From: a virus
Strand: one strand, 5' to 3'
IMG/VR virus record: IMGVR_UViG_3300049460_000379
Span: 1-40,764 of that record
Length of the DNA stretch: 40,764 nucleotides
A program made the position numbers and the translations under genes. The notes under the pieces are model-generated. The model was not told where the DNA came from and did no database searches. It saw nothing but the letters and a program-made list of their open reading frames with translations. Below are positions 7,202 to 30,580 of the stretch, piece by piece (positions within the stretch are counted from its first letter, which is position 1; each line of letters starts with the position of its first letter).

Positions 7202-7614
7202 TAGACGCCCTCCACGATCTGGTGTTCGTCGCGCACTTCAACGCTACCCGTTCGGGACACGTTGTGAATGCAGAGGACGAGGGTATCGTCTTCGAGGGAC
7301 TCGAACATGTGTTTCACTCCGGCCTTGATGTAGATAGGAAACGGGGCGGTGTAAGTCTTGCCTTCACAGGTGACGGAGCCCTTTGCGACAAACGAGGTGT
7401 GGTCGTACTCGTGCGAATGCTACGGGACAAGCGTATGCGCCTTCGGGATGCGCATTTCCTTGATGAACACGCCATCGGCAGCGGTATACTCGGCCCCGTA
7501 GGGCTGGCACTGGGCGCGGACTGTGCAGGTATCGCAAGGACTGGCCTACTTGGCGATATGCGCTGCAACCATCGACATCGCCGGTCCGCCAGCCATAAAT
7601 AGTTCTGCGCTCAT
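7201..7614 (-). CDS. Cupin-fold metal-binding protein; two in-frame TAG
   Basis: 137 codons from ATG 7614. The core reads H-S-H-E-Y-D-H, then AKGSVTCEG, and AGVKHMFESLEDDT with a further His: a small double-stranded beta-helix with cupin-type metal ligands. An upstream CDTC and a QC may be extra cysteine ligands. TAG at codons 23 (7546-7548) and 65 (7420-7422). The second sits in L-V-P-TAG-H-S-H, where similar phage cupins commonly have PQH. It lies between a 2-oxoglutarate oxygenase-like gene and the ejection genes, an arrangement seen in some podophages. The substrate is unknown. It ends at TAA 7201. Confidence 0.82.
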
Positions 7615-7618
7615 TGGT

Positions 7619-8182
7619 TCACCGTATGCAGATAATGAGGGTGATGCGGTCGCTATCGGAGTCGTTCTTGACCCAGTGAAGGCGACTATTGTCGAAAGTG
7701 TAGAGGTCTCCCGGTTCCGGCCTTAGTTCCTCGCCTTCGAAGTGGAAGGCCTGGTCCTTGTTACCCTTCACCTGAATCGCGTACTTCCGGTAGTGTCCGG
7801 CGTGCCAGCCCTGATCGATATGCGGACGGACTTCACCACCGGGGGGAATCTTGGTGATGAGGACGCCGCCGAGGTATTCGCCACCGACACGATGCAGGAC
7901 CTTTCGGGATAGTGACCACGCGGCGGGGATATTCTTAATCACCGGATACCACGATGACACGTGCTCGGCATTGAACGCCTGGATATCACCCGTGAAGTTA
8001 GCCCAATCGTTGTAGCGGACCCAGATGTCGGAAACAGCCTTGTGTGGCGTCTCGTAAGCATCAGTCCGCATCCGGTGCGTATTCCATACCTGCGGATTCT
8101 CGTCGAGCTACCTGACCAAGGCCGACACGTCGTATCCTGACTCAATGTGGCTGATAGCCTCTCCCTTATGAAACCTGCTCAC
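7619..8182 (-). CDS. Aspartyl/asparaginyl beta-hydroxylase-like 2-oxoglutarate/Fe(II) dioxygenase; one in-frame TAG
   Basis: 187 codons. The start is GTG 8182, in a GTGA overlap with the upstream stop; the alternative ATG at 8071 would drop a coherent N-terminus. The double-stranded beta-helix shows the H-x-D facial-triad part (RPHIDQGWHAG), then AIQVKGN, PGDLYTFDNSRLHWVKN and a DRITL segment that supplies the distal His and the Arg for 2-oxoglutarate. TAG at codon 25 (8108-8110) lies before LDENPQVW. It is expected to hydroxylate a protein side chain; whether the target is a virion protein or a host factor cannot be told. Its place among tail and ejection genes suggests late expression. Confidence 0.87.
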
Positions 8183-8661
8183 TGATTGTCCAGTAGTTGC
8201 TGCTGCTTGTACGAGGGCAGCTTGGATATCTGAGAAGCCCCGGAAAGGTTGTTCTATTGAGACACCTGAGTCTGTGTATTGACGACATCCGTGACTGCCG
8301 AAACCTGCGATGCCACCGACTGGATGTTGCTTGCCACACTCAACACCTGATCCTGAACCTCTGTCTGCGTCGTGGCGATGTCCGGAAGCGTGGCTGCGTC
8401 GATCCCGCCAAGACGCCTATCCGCAACCTCGCGGAAGAACTTGTACCAAACCTGCGACATGCGCCCGCTGCTATCGGTAAGGGGAACGTTGGGCTGCGGT
8501 AGCCAATCCACCTGCTTACGCGTAGCCTAGCTTCCCGACCATGCGACACGACCCGTGGCAGACCCGACGCCCGAAACGGTGGCGCATACTCCAGAGGCAA
8601 ACTTGATGGGCAGTGAACCGGATCGCGTCCCCGCAACGGTTAGGCAGGATGCGGTAGCCAT
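8179..8661 (-). CDS. Small virion/tail-associated protein with coiled coil; two in-frame TAG
   Basis: 160 codons from ATG 8661 (TAATG overlap). The first 45 residues are Gly/Ser/Ala-rich. The block QVDWLPQPNVPLTDSSGRMSQ and the following WYKFFREV are typical of a phage structural protein encoded near the tail genes. Residues 95-135 form a Gln/Ser/Val heptad-like helix (QSVASQVSAVTDVV). TAG at codons 45 (8527-8529) and 136 (8254-8256). The stretch after the second TAG ends QQQLLDNQ at TGA 8179, which overlaps the next GTG start by four bases. The exact role is not known. Confidence 0.75.
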
Positions 8662-9239
8662 TAGTTAGGAAGACCGATGATCCATGAATTTATCGTGTGC
8701 GTCCCGCCACCTGCATACACCTCCTCAGTGATGCCAGAGACCACGCAGCCGCTACCTCCTACGGTTGTCAGATCGATCGCCGAACCGCCAGGCGACGCGG
8801 CCAACTGGAAGTTGTTCGTCGTTGCTGCGGAAACATAGTATACCGTGCCCTCTGTGAGTCCAGACGGAACGGTATCGCCATAAATGACGACCTTCTGGCC
8901 GTTGCTGAACCCGTGAGCCGTGCAGGTAATCGTGTCGGCTGTCGTGTCAGCGATGAATTCCTTTGGGCTTCCGGCATTTGGCGAGTATCCGAGGTAGGTT
9001 CCTCCGTTCCACAGGCCAAGCCACCGCACCGTCTGTCCAACAGGCACAGTGATGTTCGCCGAAGCCGTGATCGACCTCTAGGCAGAGGCAGATGCCCCAA
9101 AGGTGACGGCCGGCCTAGCGTATCCGCCGCCCGTGAACTCGTTGGCACCAGTTCCAGCAGGGAACCCGCTGTGGGCACTGATTGCAGTGATCGTAAGCGC
9201 ATTCAACATCGCGTCTTTAGTAGTGGTTGCGAAGCTCAT
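8661..9239 (-). CDS. Tail/head appendage protein; one in-frame TAG
   Basis: 192 codons from ATG 9239 (ATGA overlap with the gp10-like gene). The N-terminal half carries the ANEFTGGGYARPAVTFG motif found in many small phage tail or decoration proteins. The C-terminal half is a Thr/Gly-rich insert (TCTAHGFSNGQKVVIYG, GLTEGTVYYV) resembling an immunoglobulin-like or adhesin-type beta domain of surface proteins. TAG at codon 54 (9078-9080) separates the two halves. It ends at TAA 8661. Confidence 0.78.
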
Positions 9240-10648
9240 TTCACACCCTTTGTAGCGTCTAGATTTGCCCCGTATACAGCAATCTTAACGGGCTCTGTTG
9301 TGCGAAGTCGGTACACGCGACGGCGTGACAGACCTAGCCGTCTGACGATACCCCGCATCCGATAGTCGCCAATCTGTCCCATCTATATGTCGCGCTCATT
9401 GCTAAAGTTACGACATCCATCGTCAGACCAAGAAAGTCGCCACTTGGGATCACCGCCAGACGTTGGAGCAACATCGCCGTTCAGGCCAACGCCCATTTCT
9501 CCGATGAGTTCCAGGCTGGAGTGACGTAGCCACTTGCTCTCGTTCTCTATCACAGCCCACGCCCTCTCACGTTCGATAATATTTCCGTTGTCGGTGAACG
9601 TGTCGAGGTCGAGAACGTACAGGTTGCCGTTGACGTAATCACCCGTCACATGCATCCCGCCGATGAAGAAATAGGCGTTGTCACGCTGTTGATCACGAAT
9701 GCCCGTAATGGGATTCCGATAGGTAAGCTGTGTCCATCGTCTGGCCGAGGCATCCCATGCCCATGTGGCAAATCCAGGGAACGTAAGGATGTAGAACGTG
9801 TGTCCGTTCTGCTGGTAGGTGTAACCCCACGTCTCCGTGAGGTCGCCGTATGTCCCAATCGCTGTCTCCAGGGCATGAGTGGAGATGCGTTCAGGGCTGT
9901 AGCCATCGGCTTGGTACACGATGCCCGTTCCGCTCTCATTCTGTCCAAGCCAGAACACTGTGTTGTTGGACTTGGCCGGGGTGTAGCGAGCACAGCACCC
10001 GTATTCCATCATGGCCGTGCGGGTGAAGACTAGGTCTGCATCACCCGAAGTCTGGGCTATCTCAATCGTCTGCGTGCCAAACAGCCACAATTCACGGTGG
10101 TCGCTGAGTACTGAGATAATCGGGTCGGGCTGTGCTTCTGCTGAAGCGAAACTAAGGGTATCAAGTGTTGATGCGTCGTCGATATTCGACCAGCCGTAGG
10201 TCCCGTTTTCATTAGGGAACACGATATAGCTGTCCTGAAACGTCCCCTATGCCGTCGTTGGAGCCCCGTCTACATCAGATAGGGCCAGGGTAGTCAGGTC
10301 ATACAGGCTCCATCCTGAGCTGTGCATGACGGCGACCTGCGTATCGTTGTGCTGGATGCATACACGGCCCGTGCCTGGAATCGTCCCGAGTAGAGTAGGT
10401 TCGCCCGAACGGCTAACCTGATACAAAGTCGCGCCCGACACAACATAACCTGTTCCGTTGACAGTGTGGGCTCCACGGATGGGTCCTGCGCCCACCGTAG
10501 CGAACAAACGACGACCCGGAGCCCCGTAGAACATGCCTTCTTCGGACGACCCGGGTGGTGCAGGCTCAAAGAACAGGTTGACCAGCGTCTATGCGGCCAG
10601 CGGAAGGGACCGAGAGGTGTAGGAGGCACCGAGAAAGTCGGTCTTCAC
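9236..10648 (-). CDS. P22 gp10-like packaged-DNA stabilisation (tail hub) protein; three in-frame TAG
   Basis: 470 codons. The start is GTG 10648, directly after the TAA of the connector gene. The N-terminus has the family pattern Y-x-SRS...VNLFFE...GAPGRRLFATVG. The middle contains repeated Gly/Trp beta-propeller-like strands (GTQTIEIAQTSGD, YRNPITGIRDQ). The C-terminus has RRLGLSRRRVYRL and EPVKIAVYGA, as in phage stabilisation proteins. It should sit under the portal and close the head. TAG at codons 20 (10589-10591), 134 (10247-10249) and 422 (9383-9385). The first lies in A-A-TAG-T-L-V-N-L, where relatives often have Gln before the (R/T)-x-VNL. Confidence 0.88.
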
Positions 10649-11643: not shown

Positions 11644-12609
11644 TCAGCCAGCCGCCAGGATATCGGCGATGACGTACAACGGCTTCTCGTCGCGGACAAG
11701 CAGCGACACTTCCGTACGAACCTGCCAGTTCTCGGCATCGCCAACCGTCGCCATCTGCTCCTTTTCAAACGGGCGGAGCTGCGCAAGAGCCAGTTTGTCC
11801 GTGTCGAGGATGTAGATGGTGTCGTTCAGGCCAGTAACAGCGACAGTCTGCACGCGGTTCGGGACGACCTTGGTAACGCCGAAGTCAGAGCGGTAGAAGT
11901 CGAACGCAGCATTGAGAACCGCAGCCGCCTTCGTGCCCACTTCGTTGGTACGCTGCACGTTGCCCGTGAAGGTAGAAATCTTGACCTTGTGAGCAGGCGA
12001 GCACATCACGATGGAACCGCTGCCGCCGTTCTGGTACGCGGTCTGGAGGCCGGTCTTGAGCATGGCCTCGGTGACCGAGACGTCCGTGCCATTGACGGGG
12101 GCCGTGTTGGTGGTCGGATCGGGAGCCGCACCGGTTGCGCCGAACACACGGTTGGTGACGAAGCCATTCAAGCCGCGGAGTTTTCCGGCAACGCCGGACG
12201 TACCCGTGACCGTGGCGCCCCCAGAGAGCGCGGCCGCCTCGATGTCACGCTTAAGCTCAATCATCTTCTTGGTGCAAAGACGACGGGCTTCCTTGGCACG
12301 GCCATACTTCTTGACGCGCTCGGCCGTGTTGGACACCGAGACCGTATCCTGGAAAATCTGGGTACGGTTGTTCAGGAGACCCGGCTGGGTCTGTGCAGCG
12401 TAGGAAGCGTCAGCACCTTCGATAGCTGCACGGGTCGGGTCGGGCGTGCGGTAGCTGTCACGCTGCCACTCGAAGTAAACGTTGTCGATGTCCGTGCGCT
12501 CGATCATCGAGAGCAGCGGGGCGTCGTCCGGGTTGAAGTTGAAGATCTAGTCGAGGACGTTTTCCTTGACCTTGACGATACTCGGGGTGATGAGGGTATT
12601 TGCGGGCAT
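11644..12609 (-). CDS. Major capsid protein, HK97-fold (DUF5309/SU10-like); one in-frame TAG
   Basis: 321 codons from ATG 12609. The family head reads F-N-F-N-P-D-D-A-PLLSMI, then WQRDSYRTPD, and AIEGADASY. Further blocks are VSNTAERVKKYGRAKEA, LKRDIEAAALSG, MCSPAHKVKISTFTGN, FYRSDFGVTKVVPNR and the C-terminal WQVRTEVSLLVRDEKPLYVI. TAG at codon 21 (12547-12549) precedes IFNFNP, so under the standard code only a 20-residue peptide would form (or a late re-start at ATG 12507 missing the N-arm). Since this is normally the most abundant virion protein, its dependence on amber reading is notable. It ends at TGA 11644. Confidence 0.92.
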
Positions 12610-12621: not shown

Positions 12622-13548
12622 TTAGCCAATGAGATCTGCGAGCGCATCCACTGACGGTTTGGCCTTGTAGCGTTTCATCGCATCGGCCTCCTTCACGGTT
12701 GCGTGGTTGGTTTGGTTGCTGGCTCCAGGCTTCTGTACCTTCGCCAACGGTGCGGCGGGCTTCATCTTGGCCTTATCGGCCAGGAGCGCGTCATAGGCTT
12801 TCGCCTTGGCCGCAAGCTCCCATAAGCCCTTCTGCACGTATCCCGCCTCTGAATTCTTGGGGGTGATTCCCACCTTGCCCAAGTAGACCGCGAGGTCGTC
12901 GATAGTTTTCTCACCAAAACCCGGCAGGGTGTCTCGCAGCGCCTTCTCCGTCGCATCGGCTTGCTGAGCGATCCACTCTTGGCGTTTCCGCTGAGTTTCA
13001 CCCTGAACATTCTCGATGGCGGCAAGTGCCCGGTCCAACTGGCCCTTACGTGCTTCGTACTGCTCCTTCTGTGCCACATACAAGCCCACGTCCTGCTGGG
13101 CCAGCGTCACGGGCGGCGGTGCTCCCACCTGAGTTCCCATGAACTCCACGAAAGCGTTTAGGCGGGCCAGGGTGTTCTCCAGCGCCTTCTCGTTGTGTTC
13201 GCGGTATTCGTTAGCCTGAGCCTGTGCAGCTTCGACCTGCTTACGTTCCTCGGCGACCGCCATAGTCTTCTGCGAGTAGTCGAATCCCTTCTGTGCCAGC
13301 TCGATGACCTCGGACTGCTTGAGGGGGATCTCCTTGCCATCGTGCTTGAGCGTGATGGTGGGATCATCCTCAGCTTCTTCCTATTCCTCGGCCTCCTCGC
13401 CTTCAGGGGCTTCCTCGCCCTCGGTTTCGGTCTCCTGACCTTCGTCCAGATCCTCTACGCCTTCGTCGGCCTCGTCGTTCATCATCTCGGCCAGATCGGA
13501 GAGCGTATCAACGCTATCGACCGGCTGCGTTACCGCGTCACCTGTCAT
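12622..13548 (-). CDS. Scaffold/capsid assembly protein; one in-frame TAG
   Basis: 308 codons from ATG 13548 between portal and capsid genes, the usual scaffold position. An extremely acidic N-terminus (residues 20-65, EGEEAPEGEEAEE) is followed by a long coiled-coil-like helix rich in Gln, Glu, Ala and Lys (EERKQVEAAQAQANEYREH; RALAAIENVQGETQRKRQEW) and a basic C-terminus (KRYKAKP). This acidic head, helix and basic capsid-binding tail is typical of scaffolds. TAG at codon 56 (13381-13383) lies in E-E-TAG-E-E; Gln would fit there. It ends at TAA 12622. Confidence 0.85.
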
Positions 13549-13577: not shown

Positions 13578-13862
13578 TCAGGCCCCGCGCAACGCCTTGC
13601 CAATCTTCGACAGCCTGCTTTGCTCAATCTCAATCTGCTTGGCACGGAGCTGGCCCGTCACCATTGTCTGTTCGAGCACCTTTTCAAGCCGCTTACTGGC
13701 CCGAATCATCGACCACAGCCACTCGCGCTGCTCGGCATCCGTCTCGTTCTGCCACTTCGCCAGGATTTCGTCCTGAAGCTGTGTCATTGATTCTTGGTAG
13801 ACCTCATTATCGAGGACTTCCTTGGCTAGCTGGGCGCGTTTCAGTTCCTCGGTCGCACTCAT
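13578..13862 (-). CDS. Hypothetical 94-aa helical protein after portal
   Basis: Intact, TAG-free ORF overlapping the portal stop by ATGA. It is almost entirely amphipathic helix (EELKRAQLAKEVLDNE; RLEKVLEQTMVTGQLRAKQIE), Gln/Glu/Lys-rich, with no Cys. Many podophages carry a small protein like this between portal and scaffold; function not known. Confidence 0.75.
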   Translation of the reverse strand: MSATEELKRAQLAKEVLDNEVYQESMTQLQDEILAKWQNETDAEQREWLWSMIRASKRLEKVLEQTMVTGQLRAKQIEIEQSRLSKIGKALRGA

Positions 13863-16012
13863 TCGGCTTCACCTTGTGCTGGCTCGGCTGAAGCCGCCTT
13901 CAGTTCGTCGATCTGCTGCTGCAACGCGTCAATCTTGGCATTCTGCTCGGCGTCGATATCGGCATGGGCCATACCGTGGGCCGTTTCCACACCCTTGATG
14001 TGCGTCTCGCGGTCCTTGCGGACCATATCCGCCTGACGAAGCGCGATATCGGCCTCTGTCGAACGCTGCTTGAGGTCCATCTCCTGCGCCTTCTGCTCAA
14101 GCTGAGCCTGCTTGAGTGCATTGTCCTGCTGCGACTGGACCGACTGCTGTTTGAGCTGCTCATTCTCCTGCGAGGTCTGCTCAAGCTGCTGCTGCATTTG
14201 CTGCATCTGTTCCATAGCCTGCTGCTTCTCGGCCTGGTACGCCTGCGGGTTAGGCGGCATACCTGTCGGCTGAGGGCTGACGAAGCGTTCGGGGTTCTTG
14301 AACTCGTTGGCCTCGGCGAACAGGCGGATGGACTCGGCGATGTTCTCCGGCCCCACTACGCCCATCGGGACACCAAGCTGCTGGGTCTGGATAAGGGCCA
14401 TGATGCGTGCCGCCTGCTGCTCCTTAGAGCCTGTCCCCAAGCCAACCTTGATGCTGACGTTGAGCTGGTCTTTCCACTCGGACGGGTCGATGGGTGTCCA
14501 CGCCCCATTTAGCTTGAGCATTTCCGGCTGGTTCTGGTGCTGAACGGTTAGCTTCAGCATCTTGGCGAACAGCTTGCGCATACCCACGGCACAGAAGCGG
14601 GCGATAAGCTCCATGCGCGCATCGGACTTCTGCGTGATGATGCTTACGCCGGTCGCCGTCTTGTTCAGTGAATTGGCGTCGGTGCCCTGGGAGTATCGGG
14701 TGAAGCCGGTGCGGTTCTCCTTCCACCCCTCAAGCCACTCGTTGAACTCGTAGGCAGGGGCGGCCAGGCTGGGCTGTACGATGGTCTGGAATGCGTTAGC
14801 GGGCGCTCCGCGACCACGCACGACACCACCCGGACGGTTCTCCAGCCAATCGGCAATGTTCACGTCCGCATCGGTGTTCAGATACGTGCGCTGGTTGACC
14901 GACAGATACAGGTTATCGACGATGGCCCGGACGACGTTGGTCCGGAGCTTCTGGGGCTGCAACGCGAGGTCTGCGGGGCAATCGCCGTAGAACGCATGAG
15001 GGCGAGGAATCGGGCAGATCCAGACAAACGGATGATCGTCAACCTGCTCTACGGCACCCTTGCCATCGGCATACATCGCCAGGGTTTCCTCGATCATGCA
15101 CGCCTTGACCCACTCCGCCACACCGTCACCATCGCGGTCTGCCTTGATATAGACCTCGGCACAGTTGTACAGCTGATGCGACTCGGCTGGGGTCGTGTAA
15201 CCGTCCTCTACCGCGTCGCCAAGCATTTCGATGGACTCGGCGTCACTCGGATCGCCTGAGCCCGTGCCCACGTCGGACAGGTCGTAGCCGTCTTCCTCCA
15301 GCTCGAACCGACGCTTGCGGAACACATGGGCGATCATCGCCGGCTCGTCACCCCATCGGGCGTTCGGGTCAACACGGACCTCATGCGGGGCACACACGGC
15401 GACCTTGATGCACACCTTTCGGTCATTCTTGACCACGGTGAAGGTGAGGCCCTGCTCGTCCTGCTCGGGATCACCGGCAAGCTGCCAGCCGTCCTGCATG
15501 AGCATGAGCAGCTGCTCAGGTGCCTGCCCTTCGAATGTCTGCCGGTCGTCCTCGCTGTCTTCCTCGGCCCAGACCTTGACGAATCCTACCTTCTGGATCA
15601 GCGCGTCCTTGAACCAGTCGTAGATGATTTCTACGCCGTCATTCCGGACGAAGAACAGGTGATTGATGTAACCCGTAGCTTCCTTGGCTACGCCCTCCGA
15701 CTCTGGGCGACGTTCCTCGAACTCCACCGCGTTGTCACCGGACACGAAGATCCGCATCAGCTGCGGCAGCATCCACTCGATAGTGTCAGCGACGTCCGTG
15801 GCCACGAAGTCAGAACGGTCGTCAATCTCAGGCGGGGCGAACTCACCCGTGGCCTCGGCGTTGTAAGCCTCCAGGTTGCGCAGGCGGGCACGGCCAACGT
15901 CACTGTCAGGACCGCCGATAGCCGAACTCAGGGCCTAGCGGCACATCGCCTGGATAGCGTCGTCCGACAGCTTCTCTCGCTTGGTCGTGCTTACGGATTG
16001 CGGATCAGCCAT
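13859..16012 (-). CDS. Portal protein, P22-type; one in-frame TAG
   Basis: 717 codons from ATG 16012 (TAATG overlap with terminase). The motif DVADTIEWMLPQLMRIF, then HLFFVRNDGVEIIYDWFKDAL, YGDCPADLALQPQKLRTNV and RYSQGTDANSLNKTATGV are characteristic of P22-like portals. The last 170 residues form a long Gln-rich helical barrel (MEQMQQMQQQLEQ). It forms the dodecameric DNA gateway at one capsid vertex. TAG at codon 26 (15935-15937) leaves an internal ATG at 15805 as the only standard-code start, which would remove about 70 residues including the N-terminal helices. It ends at TGA 13859. Confidence 0.93.
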
Positions 16013-17325
16013 TAGCGAGTAAGCCTTCGGTAGTTGATGGGCGCATGGGCATCAGCCCCTGGCCTGGATACGTGATCGATGGCCATGAGGCCAAAGGCGT
16101 CAGCGGCGTGACTTGACCAGTCGTGATTAGGTCCAAGGCCAATACCGCGCTCTTGATCCTTCTTCTCGTGATACCAGCCCAGCGCGTCACGGCCTGCCTC
16201 GGTTGTCTTCTCATTGAAGAACATCGACGGGAGTAGCCGCCTGACCGCCTCGATGCGCTGTGTAGCGGCACCGGCACCCATGTTGGGGATAACCCTTACG
16301 TCGAAGCCAGCGTCTCTCAGGGCGCTCTGGTAGCTGACGGAGTGAACCTTGTCGTTCGTGGCTCCGTCATGCGGCAGGATGATCTGCACCTTGCCCGGAC
16401 CGTAGCCGCTGTGCGTCAGCCACTGAATGTGTGTGGCGAGTGGCTGGCCCACGGCCTCGTAGTAGTTTAGGTTGCGGATTTCCTTGCCAACGAACTACAC
16501 GATCCAGATAGCGCAGGCGTCAGCCTTAGCCCCCGTGCCACCAATGTCCCAGTAGGCCCTTGTGGTCATCAGAGGGTCGCCGGCCACAAACCCTATCCGA
16601 CCCTCAGCCTTGGCCTGCGTGAGCCCTGCTGCGAAGTAGGCGCCATCCACGACGGCCAGGTAATCGCCCTCCCAGATATGCGGATACTGGTCGGGTCGCT
16701 CCGCCATGTCTCGTTGGCGATCACGCTCCAGCTTGGCCGGAAACTTCGGGTTGTCCCTGTAGTTGAGCTGGACGACCTTGGTGCGCGGGTCTTTCGAATG
16801 CCGGAACCGTGACTCAACCGGAGCCGTCTTGCGCTTCGGGTTCCAGGTCACCCACAACTCGGCGTTCCAGTCCGACCCCTCTTCACGAAGCGTGGGGATC
16901 AGTGTAGACCATGCCTCGTCGGTTACTGGCTCAGCCTCGTCCACCCAGCACAGCAGCAGACGACCCTTTGACTTGATGCTGGCAATGTTGCGATCAAGGC
17001 CCGAGAACGCGAACGAGATCCTCCCGTCCTTGCTGCGTATCGTCTTCTCACCGACATCGTAGTAGTCGGCGAGGAATGGCTCGTCCTCAATGGCCCGCTT
17101 GATTTCCTCCAGCGAAGAGTCGGCCAGGGAGTTCATAAACTGGCGAGCGCATAGGAGAATCCCGCTTATGCCTGCCTTGCCGAACATGTAGCCCTTGACG
17201 CAGGCCATCTTGGCAAAGCTACGAGTCTTGCCAGACCCCCGGCCGCCATGGGCGCCACGGACGTCAGCCTCACCCTCAAACACGGGTATCAGCTTCTCGG
17301 GCAGCTAGATCTTAGCTGTCGCCAC
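16012..17325 (-). CDS. terL: Terminase large subunit; two in-frame TAG
   Basis: 437 codons. The best start is GTG 17325, the only start in frame after an upstream TGA; it gives VATAKI-TAG-LPEKLIPVFEG, matching the usual head of this family. The ATPase has Walker A GGRGSGKTRS and Walker B-like LLCWVDEAE. The nuclease half has AYWDIGGTGAKADACAIWIV and the C-terminal block NHDWSSHAADAFGLM with the expected acidic and His residues. TAG at codons 7 (17305-17307) and 277 (16495-16497). The second, in W-I-V-TAG-F-V-G-K-E-I-R, falls where relatives characteristically have Gln (A-Q-F-V-G), and it separates ATPase from nuclease under the standard code. It ends at TAA 16012. Confidence 0.94.
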
Positions 17326-18182: not shown

Positions 18183-18461
18183 CTAGCCGGTGGCATCGTC
18201 GATGTAGATGGCGTTCCCGGAAGGATTCGAACCTCCGACCGACGGGTTAACAACCCGCTGCTCTACCTCTGAGCTACAGGAACGTGTGGCGGCGGCTGTT
18301 GGATTCGAACCAACGTTGGCGACGGTTAAATCGCTGCTTGGGTTAGAGCCAAGCCCAATCGGCCTCTCTGGCAAACCGCTTGAAAAGATCCGCTCCCAGT
18401 TATCCGAGAACGTCTTGGCGTCCACCTGAGTGGGCCGCTGAATGTCACCCTTGCCGTTCAT
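18183..18461 (-). CDS. Small conserved-looking ORF whose 3' part runs through both tRNA genes
   Basis: ATG 18461 overlaps the o-spanin stop by ATGA. The first 27 codons (MNGKGD, then RPTQVD, NWERIF) resemble a short, about 30-residue, phage protein found near lysis genes. After that the frame enters the CUA tRNA at 18380 and stays open through both tRNAs to TAG 18183-18185. Read-through of that TAG would add 11 codons and stop at TGATG over the next gene. The likely history is that the tRNA cassette was inserted into the 3' end of this gene. Whether the long tail is translated is doubtful. Confidence 0.5.
   Translation of the reverse strand: MNGKGDIQRPTQVDAKTFSDNWERIFSSGLPERPIGLGSNPSSDLTVANVGSNPTAAATRSCSSEVEQRVVNPSVGGSNPSGNAIYIDDATG
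18209..18283 (-). tRNA. tRNA-Asn (GUU)
   Basis: 75 nt including encoded CCA. The acceptor stem GTTCCTG/CGGGAAC has seven pairs (one G-U). D arm TAGCTCAGAGGTAGAGC, anticodon loop TTGTTAA (anticodon GUU) on a five-pair stem, T loop TTCGAAT, G73. A normal class I tRNA, three bases from the CUA tRNA, so probably made from the same transcript. Confidence 0.93.
18287..18380 (-). tRNA. Amber-reading (CUA) class II tRNA, probable code-15 tRNA
   Basis: 94 nt including encoded CCA. Acceptor AGCGGTT/AGCCGCC: A1xC72 mismatch, G2-C71, C3-G70, G4-C69, G5-C68, U6-G67, U7-A66; G73. Positions 8-9 are UG; D stem CCA/UGG with a GAGAGG-CCGA D loop. Anticodon stem CTTGG/CCAAG, loop CTCTAAC, anticodon CUA at 18344-18346. 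Variable arm 22 nt with a GCGA/TCGC stem; T arm GTTGG-TTCGAAT-CCAAC. The body is closest to serine tRNAs, but the open 1-72 pair, G73 and U35 match known requirements for glutaminyl-tRNA synthetase to charge amber suppressors. This explains the 33 in-frame TAGs in the late genes. Confidence 0.93.
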
Positions 18462-18685
18462 GGACTAGCCTTATACTTGCCCCAGCCGCAGATGGCCTTG
18501 CCAGTCTCGTCGTGGGTCAGGATTTGCTTAGCCGTACCATCGGTCAGAACGTCGTCTTGGGATACGTAGATGGGCTTGGCCCAGTCACACTGGTCAGTCG
18601 CGGGACCAACCGTCGCGCAGCCGCTTAGCAGCAGAGTCGTCAGGAGCATCGTGTACAGACACAGTCGGGGCGGGTGGTAATGCAT
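18458..18685 (-). CDS. Rz1: o-spanin (Rz1-like outer-membrane lipoprotein)
   Basis: 75 aa. The N-terminal signal LYTMLLTTLLLSGC ends in a clear lipobox, giving an outer-membrane lipoprotein. The mature part (CDWAKPIYVSQDDVLTDGT, then KAICGWGKY) matches a common o-spanin-like type. It overlaps the 3' end of the i-spanin gene in another frame, the classic Rz/Rz1 overlap. With the i-spanin it should fuse inner and outer membranes in the last step of lysis. There is no in-frame TAG, so unlike holin and endolysin it does not depend on the phage tRNA. Confidence 0.85.
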   Translation of the reverse strand: MHYHPPRLCLYTMLLTTLLLSGCATVGPATDQCDWAKPIYVSQDDVLTDGTAKQILTHDETGKAICGWGKYKASP

Positions 18686-18851
18686 CTACGGTGTCCTCGA
18701 TCTTCTGGCGTTTCTTCTTATGCTGCTTAGTGACCTTCTCGACCTTCTGAGCCTGTGCCTGTCTCTCGCTGGTCGCTCCGGAGTGGTGAGCCCATAGCAG
18801 GCTGGCACTCCACAGAAGAACGACGCCTAGGGCGATGTAGGCGCATTTCAT
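18594..18851 (-). CDS. Rz: i-spanin (Rz-like inner-membrane subunit)
   Basis: 85 aa from ATG 18851. One N-terminal membrane segment (ALGVVLLWSASLLWA) is followed by a basic coiled-coil-like periplasmic part (RQAQAQKVEKVTKQHKKKRQ) and a Pro-rich stretch. Size, topology and overlap with the o-spanin support the call. TAG-free. Confidence 0.82.
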   Translation of the reverse strand: MKCAYIALGVVLLWSASLLWAHHSGATSERQAQAQKVEKVTKQHKKKRQKIEDTVDALPPAPTVSVHDAPDDSAAKRLRDGWSRD

Positions 18852-18943
18852 TCGTCGCCCTTGCCCCAGCCCACAAGGCCAACCATCACCAGCACAACGG
18901 ATGCTAAAGCCAGGGTGAGTAAGTTAACGGCTAGCTGACACAT
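18848..18943 (-). CDS. 31-aa single-pass membrane peptide in the lysis cassette
   Basis: ATG 18943 to TGA 18848, overlapping the protease stop upstream and the i-spanin start downstream. The sequence is MCQLAVN followed by about 20 hydrophobic residues (LLTLALASVVLVMVGLVGW) and GKGDE. It could be a lysis regulator such as an antiholin-like peptide; that is inference. A longer start further upstream would lie inside the protease gene and is less likely. Confidence 0.5.
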   Translation of the reverse strand: MCQLAVNLLTLALASVVLVMVGLVGWGKGDE

Positions 18944-19547
18944 ATCCGGCCTCTTGATACTGCGCAGGCGTGAAGATGATCGGAATGGAACCCATGAGCT
19001 TGAATTGTGTGTCTTGATAGTTGATGACAACGGCGTAGCTCGTCACCGCAACCACCTACCCTGACTCGCTGAAGATCCCCGACCCGGAGTCGCCATAGAA
19101 CCCGTTGATGTCGTAGATCGTCGTAACAACACCTTCCTTCTCGTCGTACCCGGCGACATGGCCTTCGCGGTAGAGGAAGTTGAGGAACGCCGGCTGTCCC
19201 CAAAGGCAGATGAAGTCACCAGGCTTAGGTGCCTCCCCCAACTTGGCCCACGAGGTGAAGGTGGTATCCACGACCAGCATCGTGTGGTCGTTGCCATCCT
19301 CGATCTGCTGCTAGACCTTGGCGTCCTTACCATTGACCGTGAGCGCCTTCATCCCCACGAAGCAATGTGTCGCCGACAGGATCAGGTGTGGGCCAATGGA
19401 CGTACCGCTACACACCCCGTTGCCGTTCATTTCAAGCCGGAGGGCGACTGCTCGACTTCGACTTAGCAAGTCCTCTCGCGGTGAATGCGTAGCGCAAGAT
19501 GCCGTGGCCAAGATAAGGACGAGGTAGAACGCGATACGCAGCTTCAT
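18924..19547 (-). CDS. Trypsin-like (S1/V8-like) secreted serine protease; two in-frame TAG
   Basis: 207 codons from ATG 19547. The N-terminal hydrophobic signal (FYLVLILATASC) has a weak lipobox, so the protein is exported and perhaps lipid-anchored. The catalytic residues are visible: His in LILSATHC, Asp in DGNDHTMLVVD, Ser in YGDSGSGIF; GTSIGPHLILSATH is the usual strand before the His. TAG at codon 79 (19311-19313) separates His from Asp and Ser. TAG at codon 164 (19056-19058) directly follows GDSGSGIFSESG. Only read-through gives a complete triad and the following strands (VVAVTSYAVV). It ends at TAA 18924. Its place among lysis genes suggests action on periplasmic or envelope proteins late in infection. 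Confidence 0.85.
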
Positions 19548-19553
19548 GTTTCG

Positions 19554-19733
19554 TTACTCTGGGTCGATGGCTTTCTGGAGTGAATCCAGCGTTGCCTTCA
19601 GATGGTCTCCCGTATAGGACTTTGGCCTATCGGTGAGGACTCCGCCCATCGTCACGGCGTCGGCAACCATTGCTACCGGTGCAGTGACCACGCCAACGGC
19701 GGCCTTGGCGAGATTGGTTAGCATTCCGAACAT
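19554..19733 (-). CDS. 59-aa late protein of the lysis cassette
   Basis: ATG 19733 to TAA 19554. The N-terminal half is hydrophobic (FGMLTNLAKAAVGVVTAPVAMVADAVTMGG), the C-terminal half soluble (SYTGDHLKATLDSLQKAID). Small proteins of this pattern are common beside phage endolysin genes; no function is assigned. TAG-free. Confidence 0.65.
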   Translation of the reverse strand: MFGMLTNLAKAAVGVVTAPVAMVADAVTMGGVLTDRPKSYTGDHLKATLDSLQKAIDPE

Positions 19734-19735
19734 GC

Positions 19736-19921
19736 TTATCCTTGAGTAGCGTTCTTAGTGACTGCCGCCTCAGCGACGTTCGCTGAACAGTACAAACCTA
19801 GTACCCAAGTAGTCGTGCTCGACCATTGGGCTGAGTCGATGAGGTGGAATATCAGCAGGCCAGTTGCGGTAAGGAACGCAGCACAGGCGAGCTGGAACTT
19901 CGATTGGAGGAATCCGCTCAT
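19736..19921 (-). CDS. 61-aa two-pass membrane protein
   Basis: ATG 19921 to TAA 19736. Two hydrophobic segments (LACAAFLTATGLLIFHLI and TTWVLGLYCSANVAEAA) separated by DSAQWSS. The place between endolysin and spanins suggests a second holin or antiholin, but similar proteins also occur outside lysis cassettes. TAG-free. Confidence 0.65.
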   Translation of the reverse strand: MSGFLQSKFQLACAAFLTATGLLIFHLIDSAQWSSTTTWVLGLYCSANVAEAAVTKNATQG

Positions 19922-19957
19922 AATCCAGTCAATTTGGCAGGATTCGGAAGTATCCAG

Positions 19958-20434
19958 TCACGGCGTCATACAGAGTCGATACTCAGCATTGCGGCGATTG
20001 ACCAGCCCCTGAATCTTTCGTCCGCCCGCGTAGACCCACATAAGAAGGGCCTTGCACGAGCCGGCACGGTCGCCCTCGTTAGCCTTGCGCGCCATCGTAG
20101 AGCCGCAGAAGGCGGACACTCCGATGTTGAACGTGGTGCTCGTGAAGCTCGCGGCCTGGTTAACCGTCATCCGTTCCGCTGGTACGCAGGATAGGACGCC
20201 CTAAGCCGAAATTCGGATATCGCGCTGGAACCAGAGGTTGCACTGGTAATCGTCGTAGTGCTTACCCAGCACCACCTCGGGTCCCGTATGCCCAGTGCAG
20301 GCCGTCGTAACCCCTACAACGTCCGAGTAGCCCTCGTAGACCGTACCCTCCCATGGCTGGGTAAAGGCTGCGGCTGCGGCGACTACGGCGGCAGTGAAGG
20401 CCGCAAGTGCTTTAGGGCTTAGGCGTAACGACAC
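19958..20434 (-). CDS. SAR endolysin, GH24 lysozyme; one in-frame TAG
   Basis: 158 codons. Start GTG 20434; the gene overlaps the holin 3' end by 23 bases. The N-terminus is a weakly hydrophobic Ala-rich signal-anchor (ALAAFTAAVVAAAAAF), as in P1 and phage 21 SAR endolysins. The catalytic triad is E29, D38, T44 (PWEGTVYEGYSD...T), with T4 lysozyme spacing. The C-terminal half has FNIGVSAFCGSTMARK, GDRAGSCKALLMWVYAGG and GLVNRR. TAG at codon 78 (20201-20203) cuts the protein after the triad, so the standard-code product would lack the substrate-binding lobe. It ends at TGA 19958. Confidence 0.92.
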
Positions 20435-26354: not shown

Positions 26355-26611
26355 TGGACATCCTCCGGTAGAAGTGGCAGGCCGAGTCGTTCGCACTCCC
26401 AATCGGAAAGTTGGCGAACGGTCGGACGAAAGGCGTTCTGGGCTCCAGCCAGCGATACCAGGGAATTAGCTTGACCCGAGGCATAACGAGCCAGCTGCTC
26501 GGCCGACTGAGCCTGCTGGGCGTTTAGGCGGGACATTTCTCCTGAACTCATCTGGCAGGACGGGCCAAAGAAATCGCCCAGTGCCTGAGGTGCAGCGTCG
26601 AAGATGTTCAT
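26351..26611 (-). CDS. Hypothetical 86-aa protein
   Basis: ATG 26611 overlaps the NinB-like stop by ATGA. Helical, Ala/Gln/Ser-rich (SRLNAQQAQSAEQLARYASGQA), ending WECERLGLPLLPEDVQ. No domain recognised. TAG-free. Confidence 0.68.
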   Translation of the reverse strand: MNIFDAAPQALGDFFGPSCQMSSGEMSRLNAQQAQSAEQLARYASGQANSLVSLAGAQNAFRPTVRQLSDWECERLGLPLLPEDVQ

Positions 26612-27027
26612 CAAGACACCTCATTGGGATCAGGAATGAAAACGCCGTGCTGTGCTCCGAACCGCTGGACGAACGCCACGTAATCGGAGAACTCTTGGGT
26701 CGTCAGGACGGATCGTTTACCGAATGCGTCCGTCGTCGTGGTGCGAAGCGGGACAGTCACCGTGCGCTTACCCGGCACCCTCTTTTCCTTGCCTCCGAAA
26801 AACTGGATGCAGAGGTACTCGCTGATATCGTCCCGCTCGTAGCCGGTCGCGTCGCTCAGGAGCTTGTAGGCCACGCCGTTGAGAAAGCGACACTGCGGGC
26901 TGCTGCGCTCCTTGCGGAACTCCTTAAACTCGACCTTGACCCGCTTCCCTGGCAGCGCTGCCAGCAACACGGCAGCTAGGCGGCTGATATCCGACTCCCT
27001 ATCCGTGGCTGGCAGCACTGCGATCAT
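26611..27027 (-). CDS. NinB-like recombination protein
   Basis: 138 aa from ATG 27027. KRVKVEFKEFRKERSSPQCRFLNGVAYKLLSDATGYERDDISEYL, then KRTVTVPLRTTTTDAFGKRSVLTTQEFSDYVAFVQRF and the end GVFIPDPNEVS follow a phage family related to NinB/YbcN, which binds single-stranded DNA in lambda recombination. The place next to the DUF1364 nuclease supports a nin-like cluster. TAG-free. Confidence 0.65.
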   Translation of the reverse strand: MIAVLPATDRESDISRLAAVLLAALPGKRVKVEFKEFRKERSSPQCRFLNGVAYKLLSDATGYERDDISEYLCIQFFGGKEKRVPGKRTVTVPLRTTTTDAFGKRSVLTTQEFSDYVAFVQRFGAQHGVFIPDPNEVS

Positions 27028-27212
27028 GCGAAGGCACCCACCAGAGCAGCGAGGACGAGAATCGCCAGAACGACCGCGAGGGGAATCCAGAATGCCGCCA
27101 GGACCCACCACCACGACCACGCAATGACGCCGGTCAGCTTCAGCGTGATGAAGACGATGGTCAGTAGACCGCCGAAACCGATACCGCCGGACTTGCTTGC
27201 TTCGTTACTCAT
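27024..27212 (-). CDS. 62-aa two-pass membrane protein
   Basis: Start ATG 27212 in an ATGA overlap. Two adjacent hydrophobic segments (GGLLTIVFITLKLTGVIAWSW and LAAFWIPLAVVLAILVLAALVG) after a short Ser/Gly-rich head. A type of small membrane protein common in phage early operons; function unknown. TAG-free. Confidence 0.7.
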   Translation of the reverse strand: MSNEASKSGGIGFGGLLTIVFITLKLTGVIAWSWWWVLAAFWIPLAVVLAILVLAALVGAFA

Positions 27213-27427
27213 CAGTGAGCCACCTCGTAGGTCACCGAGTGAACCTTGGCGATGCGCTCGCCGTCCTCGTGGCTGGCAAACTGTCGCGCCCATTCGCGGG
27301 TATTGGCAAAAGTCACGACCTTACCAGTGTTCTTGTCCACGACGGCCCAGTGGGGCACGTTCTTGCCGTTGGCCTCGACGTAATCGCCGGTGCGGAGTTT
27401 CGGGGTGAAATTGGTGGGCTGGTTCAT
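27212..27427 (-). CDS. Hypothetical 71-aa protein
   Basis: MNQPTNFTPKLRTGDYVEANGK, then NTREWARQFASHEDGERIAKV: a small beta/alpha protein of SH3-like look. TAG-free, ATGA overlaps on both sides. No function assigned. Confidence 0.68.
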   Translation of the reverse strand: MNQPTNFTPKLRTGDYVEANGKNVPHWAVVDKNTGKVVTFANTREWARQFASHEDGERIAKVHSVTYEVAH

Positions 27428-27711
27428 TTGCGTACCCTCTTTTTCAGTAGGTTGACGGTGCGTTCGAACTGGTCGTGCATCGCTACTAGTCGGTCGCCGT
27501 CCAGGCTGTCGGTGGTGCTTGGCTTCTTCCCGATGGATCGTCCGTTTTCTTCTGCGTAGATCAGCTTTGGATCGAACTCCGCGAACTGGTCCATTAGCTC
27601 GGCGGCGTAGGGGAACTGTTCGCGGTTACGATTCCGGGCGGCCTCCCGCTTGGCGATTTGCGAAGCCGCCAAAGCGGCCACTCGTTCGACGGGGTTCGGG
27701 ATCGGGGACAT
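27424..27711 (-). CDS. Hypothetical 95-aa basic protein overlapping the helicase end
   Basis: Start chosen at ATG 27711 (MSPIPNPVERVAALAAS). It overlaps the last 86 bases of the helicase gene in another frame. Basic and helical (KREAARNRNREQFPYAAELMDQFAEFD; RTVNLLKKRVRK). It could be a helicase-partner protein by position; that is inference. TAG-free. Confidence 0.62.
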   Translation of the reverse strand: MSPIPNPVERVAALAASQIAKREAARNRNREQFPYAAELMDQFAEFDPKLIYAEENGRSIGKKPSTTDSLDGDRLVAMHDQFERTVNLLKKRVRK

Positions 27712-28999
27712 TCGGCAGGTACTCCGCATCGGCGAAATGCATCTGGCTCAACTTGGCAAAAAGTGGTTCCATGCCGGTCTCACCATCACGGTTCTTGCGG
27801 AACAGAAGCTCGGCATAGCCCTTATGTGGGCTGTCGGCGTGGTAGTAATCGTCTCGGTAAAGCATCGCGACAATGTCAGCGTCTTCCTCAATAGCTCCTG
27901 ACTCTCGAAGATCCGAGAGCATCGGGCGCTTGTCCGTTCTCGACTCAAGAGACCGGTTAAGCTGGACGAGGCACATGACCGGTATGCCGAGACCCTTGGA
28001 AAGGCTCTTGAACGCCTTCGTAACCTGCCCTGTCTCAAGATCCGGACGCCCCTTTCCGGGTAGGCGGACCAGGCCAAGGTGGTCGATGACGACCAAAGAC
28101 AACGGTTCTTGCATGTGTAGCTGCCGGATGCGGGCGATGATCGCCTCGCACGTCTGTGCCGGCGTCTCGTCGATGATTAGCCCGGAGTCGTTCAGGAGGT
28201 GCGTAGCCCCGACGATTCGCGGCCAGTCGCAATCCTGCAAGGACTTCGGCTTACGGATCAGACCGTAGTCAACGCCGGACAGATAGGAGATAGCCCGTTC
28301 CGTAAGGCCAGATCCTGTCATTTCCATTTCGGCGACGAAGACCCGGCGCTTGCGGGATTTGCCTTCCGGATGGACAAGACGGGAGTCCACCTGATTCGAC
28401 ACGTTGACCGCGACCTGCATCCCTAGTGTGGTCTTGCCCATCGACGGACGACCCGCAACTATGATCAGCGTTCCGTCGTGCATTCCGGAGGTGCGTTTGT
28501 CGTAGTTGCCTAGGCCCGTGGAGGTGCCCGTGATCGAGCCATCCTGATCAAGCCTTGTCTGCATGGCATCCATGACTTCGTTGAGAAGCCCTGAGACGTG
28601 TTTTGCGGCCTTCTCGTTACGGGGCGCTACCTGTGCCAGGATAGCTTGCGCCTCGTTGAACGTAGGAGCTTCCAGAGCCATCCTGCGACCTGCGGCGACT
28701 ACCTTCCGGCGCTCACTGTCACTGCGCACCACTTCGGCGTACGCACGAGCGTTCGCGGCAGAGGCGGCGTTGTTCGTCACCTCCATGGCGTACGCGGCCA
28801 TCTGGTTATCGCCGAACGACTCGCCCACCACGAACACGTCTACCGGCTGGGCGGCGTCGCAAAGTTCCTTAAGCTTCGCGAACAGTCGGGCGCACCGCTG
28901 ATCGCCGAAGTCCTCAACGCCAACCACGTCCGCAACCTGCCAGTACGACGACGGGTCGAGGAAGATCGCGCCAATCACGGCCTGCTCGGATGCGCTCAT
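27626..28999 (-). CDS. dnaB: Replicative DNA helicase, DnaB family
   Basis: 457 aa, TAG-free. The N-terminal helical domain is MSASEQAVIGAIFLDPSSY. The RecA-like domain has Walker A AGRPSMGKTT, VFVAEMEM, Walker B LSLVVIDHLGLV, QLNRSLE and the H4-region signature LRESGAIEEDADIVAML. A hexameric ring motor for phage DNA replication. The upstream O-like protein is the likely origin binder and loader. The last 86 bases overlap the next gene. Confidence 0.95.
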   Translation of the reverse strand: MSASEQAVIGAIFLDPSSYWQVADVVGVEDFGDQRCARLFAKLKELCDAAQPVDVFVVGESFGDNQMAAYAMEVTNNAASAANARAYAEVVRSDSERRKVVAAGRRMALEAPTFNEAQAILAQVAPRNEKAAKHVSGLLNEVMDAMQTRLDQDGSITGTSTGLGNYDKRTSGMHDGTLIIVAGRPSMGKTTLGMQVAVNVSNQVDSRLVHPEGKSRKRRVFVAEMEMTGSGLTERAISYLSGVDYGLIRKPKSLQDCDWPRIVGATHLLNDSGLIIDETPAQTCEAIIARIRQLHMQEPLSLVVIDHLGLVRLPGKGRPDLETGQVTKAFKSLSKGLGIPVMCLVQLNRSLESRTDKRPMLSDLRESGAIEEDADIVAMLYRDDYYHADSPHKGYAELLFRKNRDGETGMEPLFAKLSQMHFADAEYLPNVPDPEPRRTSGRFGGFANRQAGGRPES

Positions 29000-29211
29000 G
29001 CGGCAATCCCCAGTAGGCGACGGGCGGTCATGCGGCCACGCTGGTCAGCCGTGCAGGCAAGGCACTGGCCGAAGTGCAGCCTCCGGCCGTGCATCGGCCA
29101 GAACTCAACCGTGGCCGGGTGCCAGGAATCGACGCCAAGGCCAATCTTCGTGCAGCGTGGGCACTGGGCGTATTCGCCGTCGAATCGGCTTCGGAAGTTC
29201 GGGGCGTTCAT
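28996..29211 (-). CDS. 71-aa Cys-motif (zinc-ribbon-like) protein
   Basis: CPRC near residue 17 and CLAC near residue 50 suggest one zinc site. Basic C-terminus (RGRMTARRLLG). It sits between the O-like and DnaB genes with ATGA overlaps, so a replication accessory role is plausible. TAG-free. Confidence 0.7.
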   Translation of the reverse strand: MNAPNFRSRFDGEYAQCPRCTKIGLGVDSWHPATVEFWPMHGRRLHFGQCLACTADQRGRMTARRLLGIAA

Positions 29212-29954
29212 GCAGACACCTGCATGGCAGCGATTGCCGCATCCATAATTTCGGCGAAGCGGTCTTCGCGGATCAGAACATCAAGGTTCTGCTTCCACTT
29301 CGGGCTGTTCGGGTTGGGCGTGTCGCCACGTAGCCAGGGGTCCATCGAGCAGTGTTCGAAGTAGCCAGCCCAGAACTGAGCGGGGTCGTAATCCCACCCC
29401 TGTGACTTGCAGACCTGACGAGCGAGTTTCTCGACAGCAGCAATCCGACGCTTGCGCTTCGGGTTGAGTACCGAAATCTTTTGGCAGCGAGGAAGGATTG
29501 AGTGATACGAATCCAGCAGGACGGACGCAGGCACCGCGATAGCGGAGCTCTCTGTCTCTGTCTCTGTCTCTGTCTCTGTCTCTGTCTCTGTCTCTGTCTC
29601 TGTCTCTGTCTCTGTCTCTGTCTCTGTCTCTGGGGTAGCAACTTGCAAGCAGTCTGCTAGCAACGTGCTAGCAACTATCACAAATCCCTTATCAATCAGT
29701 GGGGTTAGGCCTGCCTCGATGTCGGAGACATTCCAGCGAAGGCGGAAGGCCAACCAGTCGGTATCCACCCTCACCGTACCATCCACCTCCTCGCTTGCTA
29801 GCAACCAGAGCAATGGTGCTAGCGCCTTGCTAGCAATCGGCAAGCAAGTGAATTCGTAGTCGTCAAGGAGACGCTTCTCCAGCTTGATCCAAGGCGGAGA
29901 ACGATCCTTGTAGTGCTGGAACTTTGCCCAATTCTTGATGACGCCGAGGGTCAT
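29208..29954 (-). CDS. O-like replication initiator with internal ETET tract
   Basis: 248 aa, TAG-free. The N-terminal winged-helix-like part reads IKNWAKFQHYKDRSPPWIKLEKRLLDD and LRWNVSDIEAGLTPLIDKGF, similar to the DNA-binding half of phage O-type proteins. A 14-unit Glu-Thr repeat is a flexible acidic linker. The C-terminal domain (AQFWAGYFEHCSMDPWLRG; NLDVLIREDRFAEIM) is of the type that contacts the helicase. Iteron-like repeats lie inside the N-terminal coding part, as in lambda O. It is followed directly by a zinc protein and DnaB. Confidence 0.8.
   Translation of the reverse strand: MTLGVIKNWAKFQHYKDRSPPWIKLEKRLLDDYEFTCLPIASKALAPLLWLLASEEVDGTVRVDTDWLAFRLRWNVSDIEAGLTPLIDKGFVIVASTLLADCLQVATPETETETETETETETETETETETETETESSAIAVPASVLLDSYHSILPRCQKISVLNPKRKRRIAAVEKLARQVCKSQGWDYDPAQFWAGYFEHCSMDPWLRGDTPNPNSPKWKQNLDVLIREDRFAEIMDAAIAAMQVSA
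29549..29632. repeat. 14 tandem copies of the hexamer TCTCTG
   Basis: 84 bp of perfect TCTCTG repeats inside the O-like gene, encoding alternating Glu and Thr. The unit is two codons, so slippage changes the linker length but never the frame. Confidence 0.97.
29655..29837. repeat. Iteron-like TGCTAGCAA repeats, candidate replication origin
   Basis: TGCTAGCAA at 29655, 29666, 29796 and 29828, plus a degenerate copy at 29817, all in one orientation and each containing the palindrome GCTAGC. A locally AT-richer stretch (29676-29700) lies between. The position inside the initiator gene mirrors the lambda origin inside O. No duplex-melting assay or family match is available. Confidence 0.55.
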
Positions 29955-30019
29955 ACCGAATACCTGCTGTGGACGTTACTTTGACAATTGATTTGCGATG
30001 CTTACGGACGCTGGGGGAG

Positions 30020-30580
30020 TTATGCCGCTGATTTACGGCGAGCCCGAAAAACGTAGCCTTCCTTGATGTTTTCGCTGGACGTGCAGATGTGGACATTCCA
30101 AAACACGTACGGGCCGTCATCGTTGTTTCGGCCCATCACGTAGCCGTCTCCCCTACCCCTTTCGGAAAGGTGCCCGGAATCGACCCAGACCTGATGCCAT
30201 TCCGGGTAGTTGAACTGCCAGGGGATTGAGCGGCGAATCGCGTTGCGCCTCTGCATCGAGTACTTCTTGGAGAGGGCGCCCTTGTTCCACGGAGTAAGCC
30301 CCTCATTCAGAGCCACCACGGTCGCGTAGTCACAGCCGAACATCGCGGCGCACCGAGCATCCCTAGCTGCTGCGGACTGCTCCTCTCGTTCGGCCCTGCG
30401 CTTGGCACCGCGGATTCGATTGCCACCATGCTTCCCGTTGAAGCCATGGCGACCTACCAGTTGCCTGACGCGTTCTCGGTTAATTCCATAGATAACCCCG
30501 ATTTCTTCCAGCGTCGATCCATCCGCGTACAGCTCGCACATATCCGCTTCGCGCTGAATATTTCTTGCCGTCGAGTTCAT
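30020..30580 (-). CDS. DNA-binding protein with N-terminal HTH and HNH/AP2-like C-terminus
   Basis: 186 aa. The N-terminus has a sigma-4-like helix-turn-helix (DGSTLEEIGVIYGINRERVRQLVGRHGF). The C-terminus has W-x-x-W-x-DSGHLSERGRGDGYVMGRNNDDGPYVFWNVHI, the layout of a phage HNH/AP2-like DNA-binding module (GY-x-x-R...GPY...NV) without a clear HNH catalytic set. It lies between the CII-position regulator and the O-like gene, so it may act in early control. TAATG overlap at the start. TAG-free. Confidence 0.65.
   Translation of the reverse strand: MNSTARNIQREADMCELYADGSTLEEIGVIYGINRERVRQLVGRHGFNGKHGGNRIRGAKRRAEREEQSAAARDARCAAMFGCDYATVVALNEGLTPWNKGALSKKYSMQRRNAIRRSIPWQFNYPEWHQVWVDSGHLSERGRGDGYVMGRNNDDGPYVFWNVHICTSSENIKEGYVFRARRKSAA

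Follow-up and report, generated by a model that had tools for sequence, protein, structure and literature searches.

Results

Organization of the CUA tRNA locus

The window analysed here, meaning the whole stretch of DNA under study, is the entire IMG/VR virus record IMGVR_UViG_3300049460_000379 (40,764 bases). This 40.8 kb record has a GC content of 58% and podovirus-like head genes, and since it holds an integrase gene (39607-40764) the phage is probably temperate. On the minus strand lies a tRNA gene of 94 nt including its CCA, a class II length, whose anticodon is placed by ARAGORN at 18346-18344 (Table 1). It scores 41.1 bits against the Rfam tRNA model RF00005 (gathering score 29; E = 1.8e-5 for the window), and its variable region measures 22 nt, as the initial annotation had reported from the letters alone. 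The two acceptor strands read A1 G2 C3 G4 G5 U6 U7 and A66 G67 C68 C69 G70 C71 C72, with the pairs 2-71 to 7-66 formed and A1xC72 open. The anticodon CUA, the A1xC72 mismatch, G2-C71 and G73 that had first drawn attention to this gene all proved real in ARAGORN, the acceptor fold and Rfam, and alignment to the covariance model with Infernal left 1-72 open as the sole non-standard pair of the molecule.

Table 1. Features of the window that bear on the CUA tRNA and on in-frame TAG codons
Feature	Position	Strand	Source
Amber (CUA) tRNA	18287..18380	-	ARAGORN; Rfam RF00005; body comparison
A1, unpaired against C72 (18291)	18380..18380	-	acceptor fold, Infernal, CUA tRNA comparison
Discriminator G73, followed by encoded CCA (18289-18287)	18290..18290	-	
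Variable arm, stem-loop GCGAU/GUCGC plus CAAC ahead of the T stem, Tyr-type geometry	18315..18334	-	
tRNA-Asn(GUU), 3 nt downstream of the CUA tRNA	18209..18283	-	ARAGORN, Rfam
Terminase large subunit (TerL), 2 in-frame TAG (codons 7, 277; codon 277 = 16497-16495)	16012..17325	-	
Portal protein, 1 in-frame TAG	13859..16012	-	
Scaffold protein, 1 in-frame TAG	12622..13548	-	
Major head protein, 1 in-frame TAG	11644..12609	-	
Head closure (Hc3) protein, 3 in-frame TAG (codons 20, 134, 422)	9236..10648	-	
Other late genes (head/tail, ejection, lytic tail protein, fibre) with in-frame TAG	288..9239	-	
Spanin, protease-like and endolysin genes, in-frame TAG in each	18458..20434	-	
Recombination, DnaB, replication, Erf, SSB and integrase genes, no in-frame TAG	26611..40764	.	

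The adjacent tRNA-Asn(GUU) gene is probably co-transcribed with the CUA tRNA. A terminator-like hairpin with a T-rich tail (18412-18391, minus strand) lies just upstream, between the spanin and tRNA genes, and a promoter scan found none. Neither ARAGORN nor the Rfam tRNA model found a second CUA tRNA across the 40,764-base record, and beside this one no theta ribozyme or other RNA exceeded its Rfam gathering score. ARAGORN labels the gene 'Pyl'. The variable loop of tRNA-Pyl is very short, and the 22-nt variable arm contradicts that label.

The tRNA body resembles tRNA-Tyr

The body of the tRNA, including its D arm, had initially been described as serine-like, a view that comparison with host tRNAs does not bear out. 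When the whole CUA tRNA was searched against 240 alphaproteobacterial and 250 Burkholderiales-order genomes, matches appeared in 11 and 16 of them, respectively, and the 20 of these 27 matching places that were fetched hold 17 distinct sequences, every one of them tRNA-Tyr(GUA) by ARAGORN. Positions 8-11 of the phage tRNA read TGCC and its T arm is GTTGGTTCGAATCCAAC; the former is found in 16 and the latter in 17 of 18 host tRNA-Tyr, and both are absent from all 47 tRNA-Ser and all 46 tRNA-Leu, bearing in mind that 17 of the 18 tRNA-Tyr compared had been chosen for their similarity to the phage tRNA. Two genomes (G001 and G003) were taken solely for holding a related TerL gene. The tRNA-Tyr of each (L273 and L317, respectively) begins its D arm identically to the phage tRNA, and the same T arm is present in L317 and differs by one base in L273. 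The spacing between the variable-arm stem and the T stem, 4 nt in the phage tRNA, is 3 nt in host tRNA-Tyr, 1 in tRNA-Ser and 1-2 in tRNA-Leu. A body-only HMM gave 18.4 bits for Ser and 16.6 for Tyr when the similarity-picked Tyr genes were withheld, and 25.3 for Tyr against 18.4 for Ser when they were included. The D-arm start, the T arm and the variable-arm geometry all argue against a serine origin, and we consider it highly likely, from these sequence comparisons, that the body derives from a tRNA-Tyr of alpha/betaproteobacterial type.

What sets the phage molecule apart from bacterial tRNA-Tyr is the absence of the GUA anticodon, A73 and G1-C72, in place of which it has CUA, G73 and A1xC72. 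From bacterial tRNA-Ser it differs by the absence of G1-C72 and of a variable arm with 1 nt 3' of its stem. A plasmid-borne source was also sought, and no match to a plasmid-borne tRNA was found. Two related phage loci carry tRNA-Tyr(GUA) genes about 3 kb upstream of TerL (L025:880-963 and L026:6960-7048), in which the D arm is unusual, as is the T loop (GGATCGTTACC). Their bodies are clearly different from that of the CUA tRNA, and direct descent from them is not supported.

TAG is a sense codon in the late genes

Taken as a stop, TAG breaks the terminase, portal, head, head-closure and tail genes; read through, these give whole families that end in TAA or TGA. Coding density in the late region rises from 0.78 to 0.96 with TAG as sense, compared with 0.87 for TGA and 0.80 for TAA as sense. 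There are 34 in-frame TAG codons in 20 late genes (6,318 codons) and none in the 25 others examined (11 middle and 14 early; 4,510 codons). Two of the 34 belong to the gene at 7622-8506 (codons 12 and 30), at a place where its frame overlaps the next gene, and may be non-coding, so that 32 is the safer count. Set against Gln codons, TAG numbers 34 to 353 in the late genes and 0 to 155 elsewhere (Fisher p = 1.3e-5). As their own stops, these 20 late genes use TAA (8) or TGA (12) and never TAG. The recoding is confined to the late genes. One early-region frame (33086-33490, plus strand) ends in TAG, and would gain 7 codons once the CUA tRNA is present.

UAG is predicted to encode glutamine

Codon 277 of the terminase large subunit, a TAG, aligns with Gln in 83 of 83 relatives. 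The main codon inference covered 27 TAG sites, with each site given a single vote from no more than five relatives and recoded relatives kept as subjects, and here Gln leads Glu by 14.7, Arg by 16.8, Lys by 19.4, Ser by 23.8 and Tyr by 33.6 nats. The same procedure assigned 61 of 61 sense codons correctly. Sites drawn from Ser codons never reached the observed Gln-Ser score (0 of 20,000 draws; highest -1.7), and Gln-codon control sites gave 12.9-28.4. A stricter run, limited to 117 non-recoded subject loci, still ranks Gln first at 13 sites of this phage, by just 1.2 nats over Glu and 3.0 over Ser, and in the recoded relatives (115 TAG sites) Gln leads Glu by 19.0 and Ser by 32.7 nats. That UAG stands for glutamine in the late genes of this phage is thus well supported by alignment. 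The initial suggestion of a class II amber tRNA acting for glutamine finds backing here, as late-gene TAG sits where relatives have Gln and not Ser.

Two other charging schemes have to be weighed against these data. A serine-charged tRNA, with UAG read as serine, would account for the class II form, the G2-C71 pair, and the long variable arm and G73, which are Ser determinants according to PMC9976931; SerRS could recognise the latter two. However, the codon scores and the Ser-codon draws speak for glutamine, the variable arm does not have Ser-type geometry, and G1-C72, conserved in most bacterial tRNA-Ser (PMC9976931), is gone. As G73 and G2-C71 occur in tRNA-Ser too, they alone cannot separate Gln from Ser. 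Taken together, we regard a serine reading as highly improbable. Continued charging with tyrosine, as in wild-type su+3, might be expected of a Tyr-type body with U35, but A73 and G1-C72, both required for bacterial Tyr identity (PMC9976931), have been lost and Gln outscores Tyr by the widest margin of all, leaving this scheme hardly credible. Glutamine therefore remains the preferred reading of UAG.

Recoded relatives share the open acceptor end

In 11 of 128 related loci the aligned genes contain TAG in frame (106 TAG, 4 TAA and 2 TGA). A CUA tRNA is present in seven of the 11, the other four being short fragments, and none was found among the non-recoded relatives in the DNA examined around the related loci. 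The seven tRNAs comprise six distinct sequences with class I bodies, and all seven have an open 1-72 (UxC, CxC or CxA), G2-C71, G3-C70 and G73. The proposal that an open 1-72 with G73 constitutes a Gln acceptor end is strengthened by this finding, as recoded relatives display the open 1-72/G2-C71/G73 combination on other bodies. In three recoded relatives (L039:205-275, L083:2561-2631 and L088:2561-2631) the CUA tRNA is 71 nt long, with a much reduced D arm.

The CUA tRNA lies upstream of the aligned TerL start, by 349-779 nt in the seven relatives and by 1,055 nt in this phage. In several non-recoded relatives the neighbourhood of TerL, mainly its upstream side, holds other tRNAs (Tyr, Thr, Pro, Met, Trp, Gln), which indicates that this is a common place for tRNAs. 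In a 102-row TerL tree, four changes are needed to account for the recoded state, at least three of them by well-supported branches, and the bootstrap has not settled. Given at least three changes on the tree, the constant position of the tRNA a short way upstream of TerL and four types of mismatch (AxC, UxC, CxC and CxA), the broken 1-72 itself appears to have been selected.

The TerL relatives sit in alpha-, beta- and gammaproteobacterial genomes. Homologues of the Hc3 protein in 369 gammaproteobacterial and 385 alphaproteobacterial genomes were distant only (26-37% identity, in 5 genomes of each group), and an integrase search for the host matched only three phage contigs. One phage contig, L301, has a 91% identical integrase (DNA 85% identical over 1.5 kb) and no tRNA found in its record, and is a mosaic relative.

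The open 1-72 pair in a wider set of CUA tRNAs

A pattern scan together with the relatives yielded at least 69 CUA tRNA genes, and the counts that follow are among the matches listed. The 1-72 pair is unpaired in 15 of the 69, all 15 with G73, and the unpaired counts at 2-71 to 7-66 are 1, 0, 0, 1, 0 and 1. This concentration at 1-72 marks the mismatch as a patterned feature. Fourteen of the 15 have G2-C71 and the other a G-U pair, and eight of the 15 belong to the family of this phage. Among the 54 listed with a paired 1-72, G73 is found in 12.

A lone 1-72 mismatch occurs in only 16 of 638 other tRNAs, namely Met(CAU) 9, Gln 4, Trp 2 and Ile 1. The preponderance of Met(CAU) could be taken to mean that the open pair serves initiator-like formylation or resistance to peptidyl-tRNA hydrolase, with Gln identity coming from other positions, and G2-C71, C3-G70 and G4-C69 of the phage tRNA resemble the acceptor stem of an initiator. 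We consider this very unlikely, since the mismatch is accompanied by G73 in every listed CUA tRNA that has it, the anticodon stem (CUUGG/CCAAG) is without three G-C pairs, and an internal UAG needs an elongator. The acceptor end is better read as one that favours glutamine.

Recoding was assessed in 15-kb stretches of eight records with a Gln-type end (six open, two with a weak A-U pair) and in shorter or equal stretches of 14 records with another CUA tRNA, G1025 and G1038 being left out of the 24. By a criterion chosen after the data had been seen (in one stretch, a gain in coding density of at least 0.13 with TAG as sense that is also at least 0.10 above the gain with TGA as sense), seven of the eight were TAG-recoded, the eighth (G1023) being weak, compared with none of the 14. 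CUA tRNAs of class II length are present in six of the eight, so this phage is not alone in having a long variable arm on a Gln-type amber tRNA. When the other long CUA tRNAs were classified by body alone, no clear isotype emerged. We lean, by a small margin, toward the view that recoding phages have repeatedly turned unrelated class I and class II bodies into Gln acceptors by a broken or weak 1-72, G2-C71 and G73, in which case this end would predict TAG = Gln whatever the body.

Seven phage records, most of them large (L147, L196, L207, L228, L240, L168 and L250), have CUA tRNAs 86-92 nt in length, in which the variable region is long and always contains CTGA and the end is Gln-type or has a weak 1-72. 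Most of the seven look TAG-recoded. L196 (6,475 bases), which has a CUA tRNA, shows its biggest density gain with TAA as sense (0.36 to 0.86); this may be chance in AT-rich non-coding DNA.

Discussion

How the CUA tRNA could be charged with glutamine

From the acceptor end and body of the tRNA, the late-gene recoding and the Gln meaning of UAG, all computed from the sequence, we infer how the tRNA would be charged and by which enzyme, as well as its expression and timing. It is quite likely that the phage reads late-gene UAG as glutamine through its own tRNA of tRNA-Tyr descent, with an altered acceptor end and charging by the Gln system, most simply GlnRS. Read from comparison with present-day host tRNA-Tyr, three point changes would have been involved. 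G34C would have turned GUA into CUA; G1A would have opened 1-72 and removed G1-C72, a Tyr and Ser determinant; and A73G would have cost a Tyr determinant and gained a Gln determinant. A Gln-system synthetase of the host, most simply GlnRS, would then charge the tRNA, reading U35, G2-C71, G73 and an easily opened 1-72 with no dependence on the variable arm, and the charged tRNA would compete with release factor 1 at UAG. The replication and integration genes, having no in-frame TAG, would be readable before the CUA tRNA accumulates.

The 10-25 pair in the E. coli Gln set is G10-C25. The phage tRNA agrees with the E. coli GlnRS set at U35, G2-C71, G73 and a weak or open 1-72, and departs from it in having C10-G25, C3-G70 rather than G3-C70, and A36 rather than G36. 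The broken 1-72 may offset the A36 anticodon, which is poor for GlnRS, and may also compensate for C10-G25 and C3-G70, which like A36 are non-optimal for the E. coli enzyme. According to PMC9976931, changes in the 1-72 and 3-70 pairs give amber tRNA-Ser a Gln identity, and the amber tRNA-Asn suppressors whose 1-72 is weakened all insert Gln. An engineered amber tRNA-Tyr with C1xA72 is Gln-charged in E. coli (PMC8576571).

The identity of the enzyme depends on the host. GlnRS scored above the curated cut-off in 5 of 12 genomes with a related TerL and was absent by that measure from 7, including all 6 alphaproteobacteria. A host without GlnRS would need another route, in which a non-discriminating GluRS or GluRS2 adds Glu and an amidotransferase converts it to Gln, and Glu is indeed the second-best residue at the TAG sites. 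This route fits the class II body poorly: GluRS relies on features of the D arm and on nucleotide 47 being absent, neither of which a class II body of Tyr type offers, and the specificity of the amidotransferase uses U1-A72 (both enzymes as described in PMC9976931), which neither the phage nor its relatives have. We therefore consider it unlikely, and favor direct charging by GlnRS.

Relation to known systems

Mutants of the su+3 (supF) amber tRNA-Tyr can insert glutamine. The parallel with su+3, drawn initially for a supposed serine body, holds more closely than was claimed, as su+3 is itself an amber tRNA-Tyr and the phage body is Tyr-like. Like those mutants, the phage tRNA has a Tyr-type class II body, CUA by G34C, an open 1-72 and/or G73, and a predicted Gln at UAG; unlike them, it is natural and phage-borne, would read tens of UAGs in essential late genes, and has C3-G70 and a longer variable arm. 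The laboratory conversion of an amber tRNA-Ser to Gln, as described in PMC9976931, likewise moved a class II amber tRNA via its acceptor end, but is a construct on a Ser body.

Phages with code 15 (TAG = Gln), such as crAss-like phages, have mass-spectrometric proof of the reassignment (PMC9523058, PMC11210395). They share with this phage late in-frame TAG, a CUA tRNA and Gln, here deduced from sequence, whereas this phage is small, probably temperate and of 58% GC, with Pseudomonadota-linked relatives and a Tyr-type class II tRNA. Gut-phage suppressor tRNAs with theta ribozymes have predicted isotypes that include Gln (69.4%), Trp, Ile and Tyr (1.1%) (PMC10879173), and these too are CUA tRNAs from recoded phages, a number of them on bodies other than Gln; the phage tRNA differs in having no ribozyme or other Rfam match beside it. 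In the open-licence PMC literature we found no account of a phage suppressor that is Tyr-type and inserts Gln, nor of the open 1-72 as a signature in phages, a weak absence. Late-gene recoding of TAG to Gln is itself known; this phage adds what is apparently nature's version of an amber tRNA-Tyr shifted to Gln identity.

Amber tRNA-Tyr and tRNA-Ser with Gln identity served in the laboratory to establish the rules of tRNA identity, and evolution seems to have reached the same solution. The case shows how few point changes in a spare tRNA can give a phage a new decoder. Body-based and automatic labels mislead for phage suppressor tRNAs, as both the 'Pyl' of ARAGORN and the serine of the initial annotation illustrate, and the acceptor end offers an inexpensive way to test for TAG = Gln recoding from sequence. 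Finally, these observations assign recoding of late genes to a family of temperate phages whose relatives include Pseudomonadota prophages.
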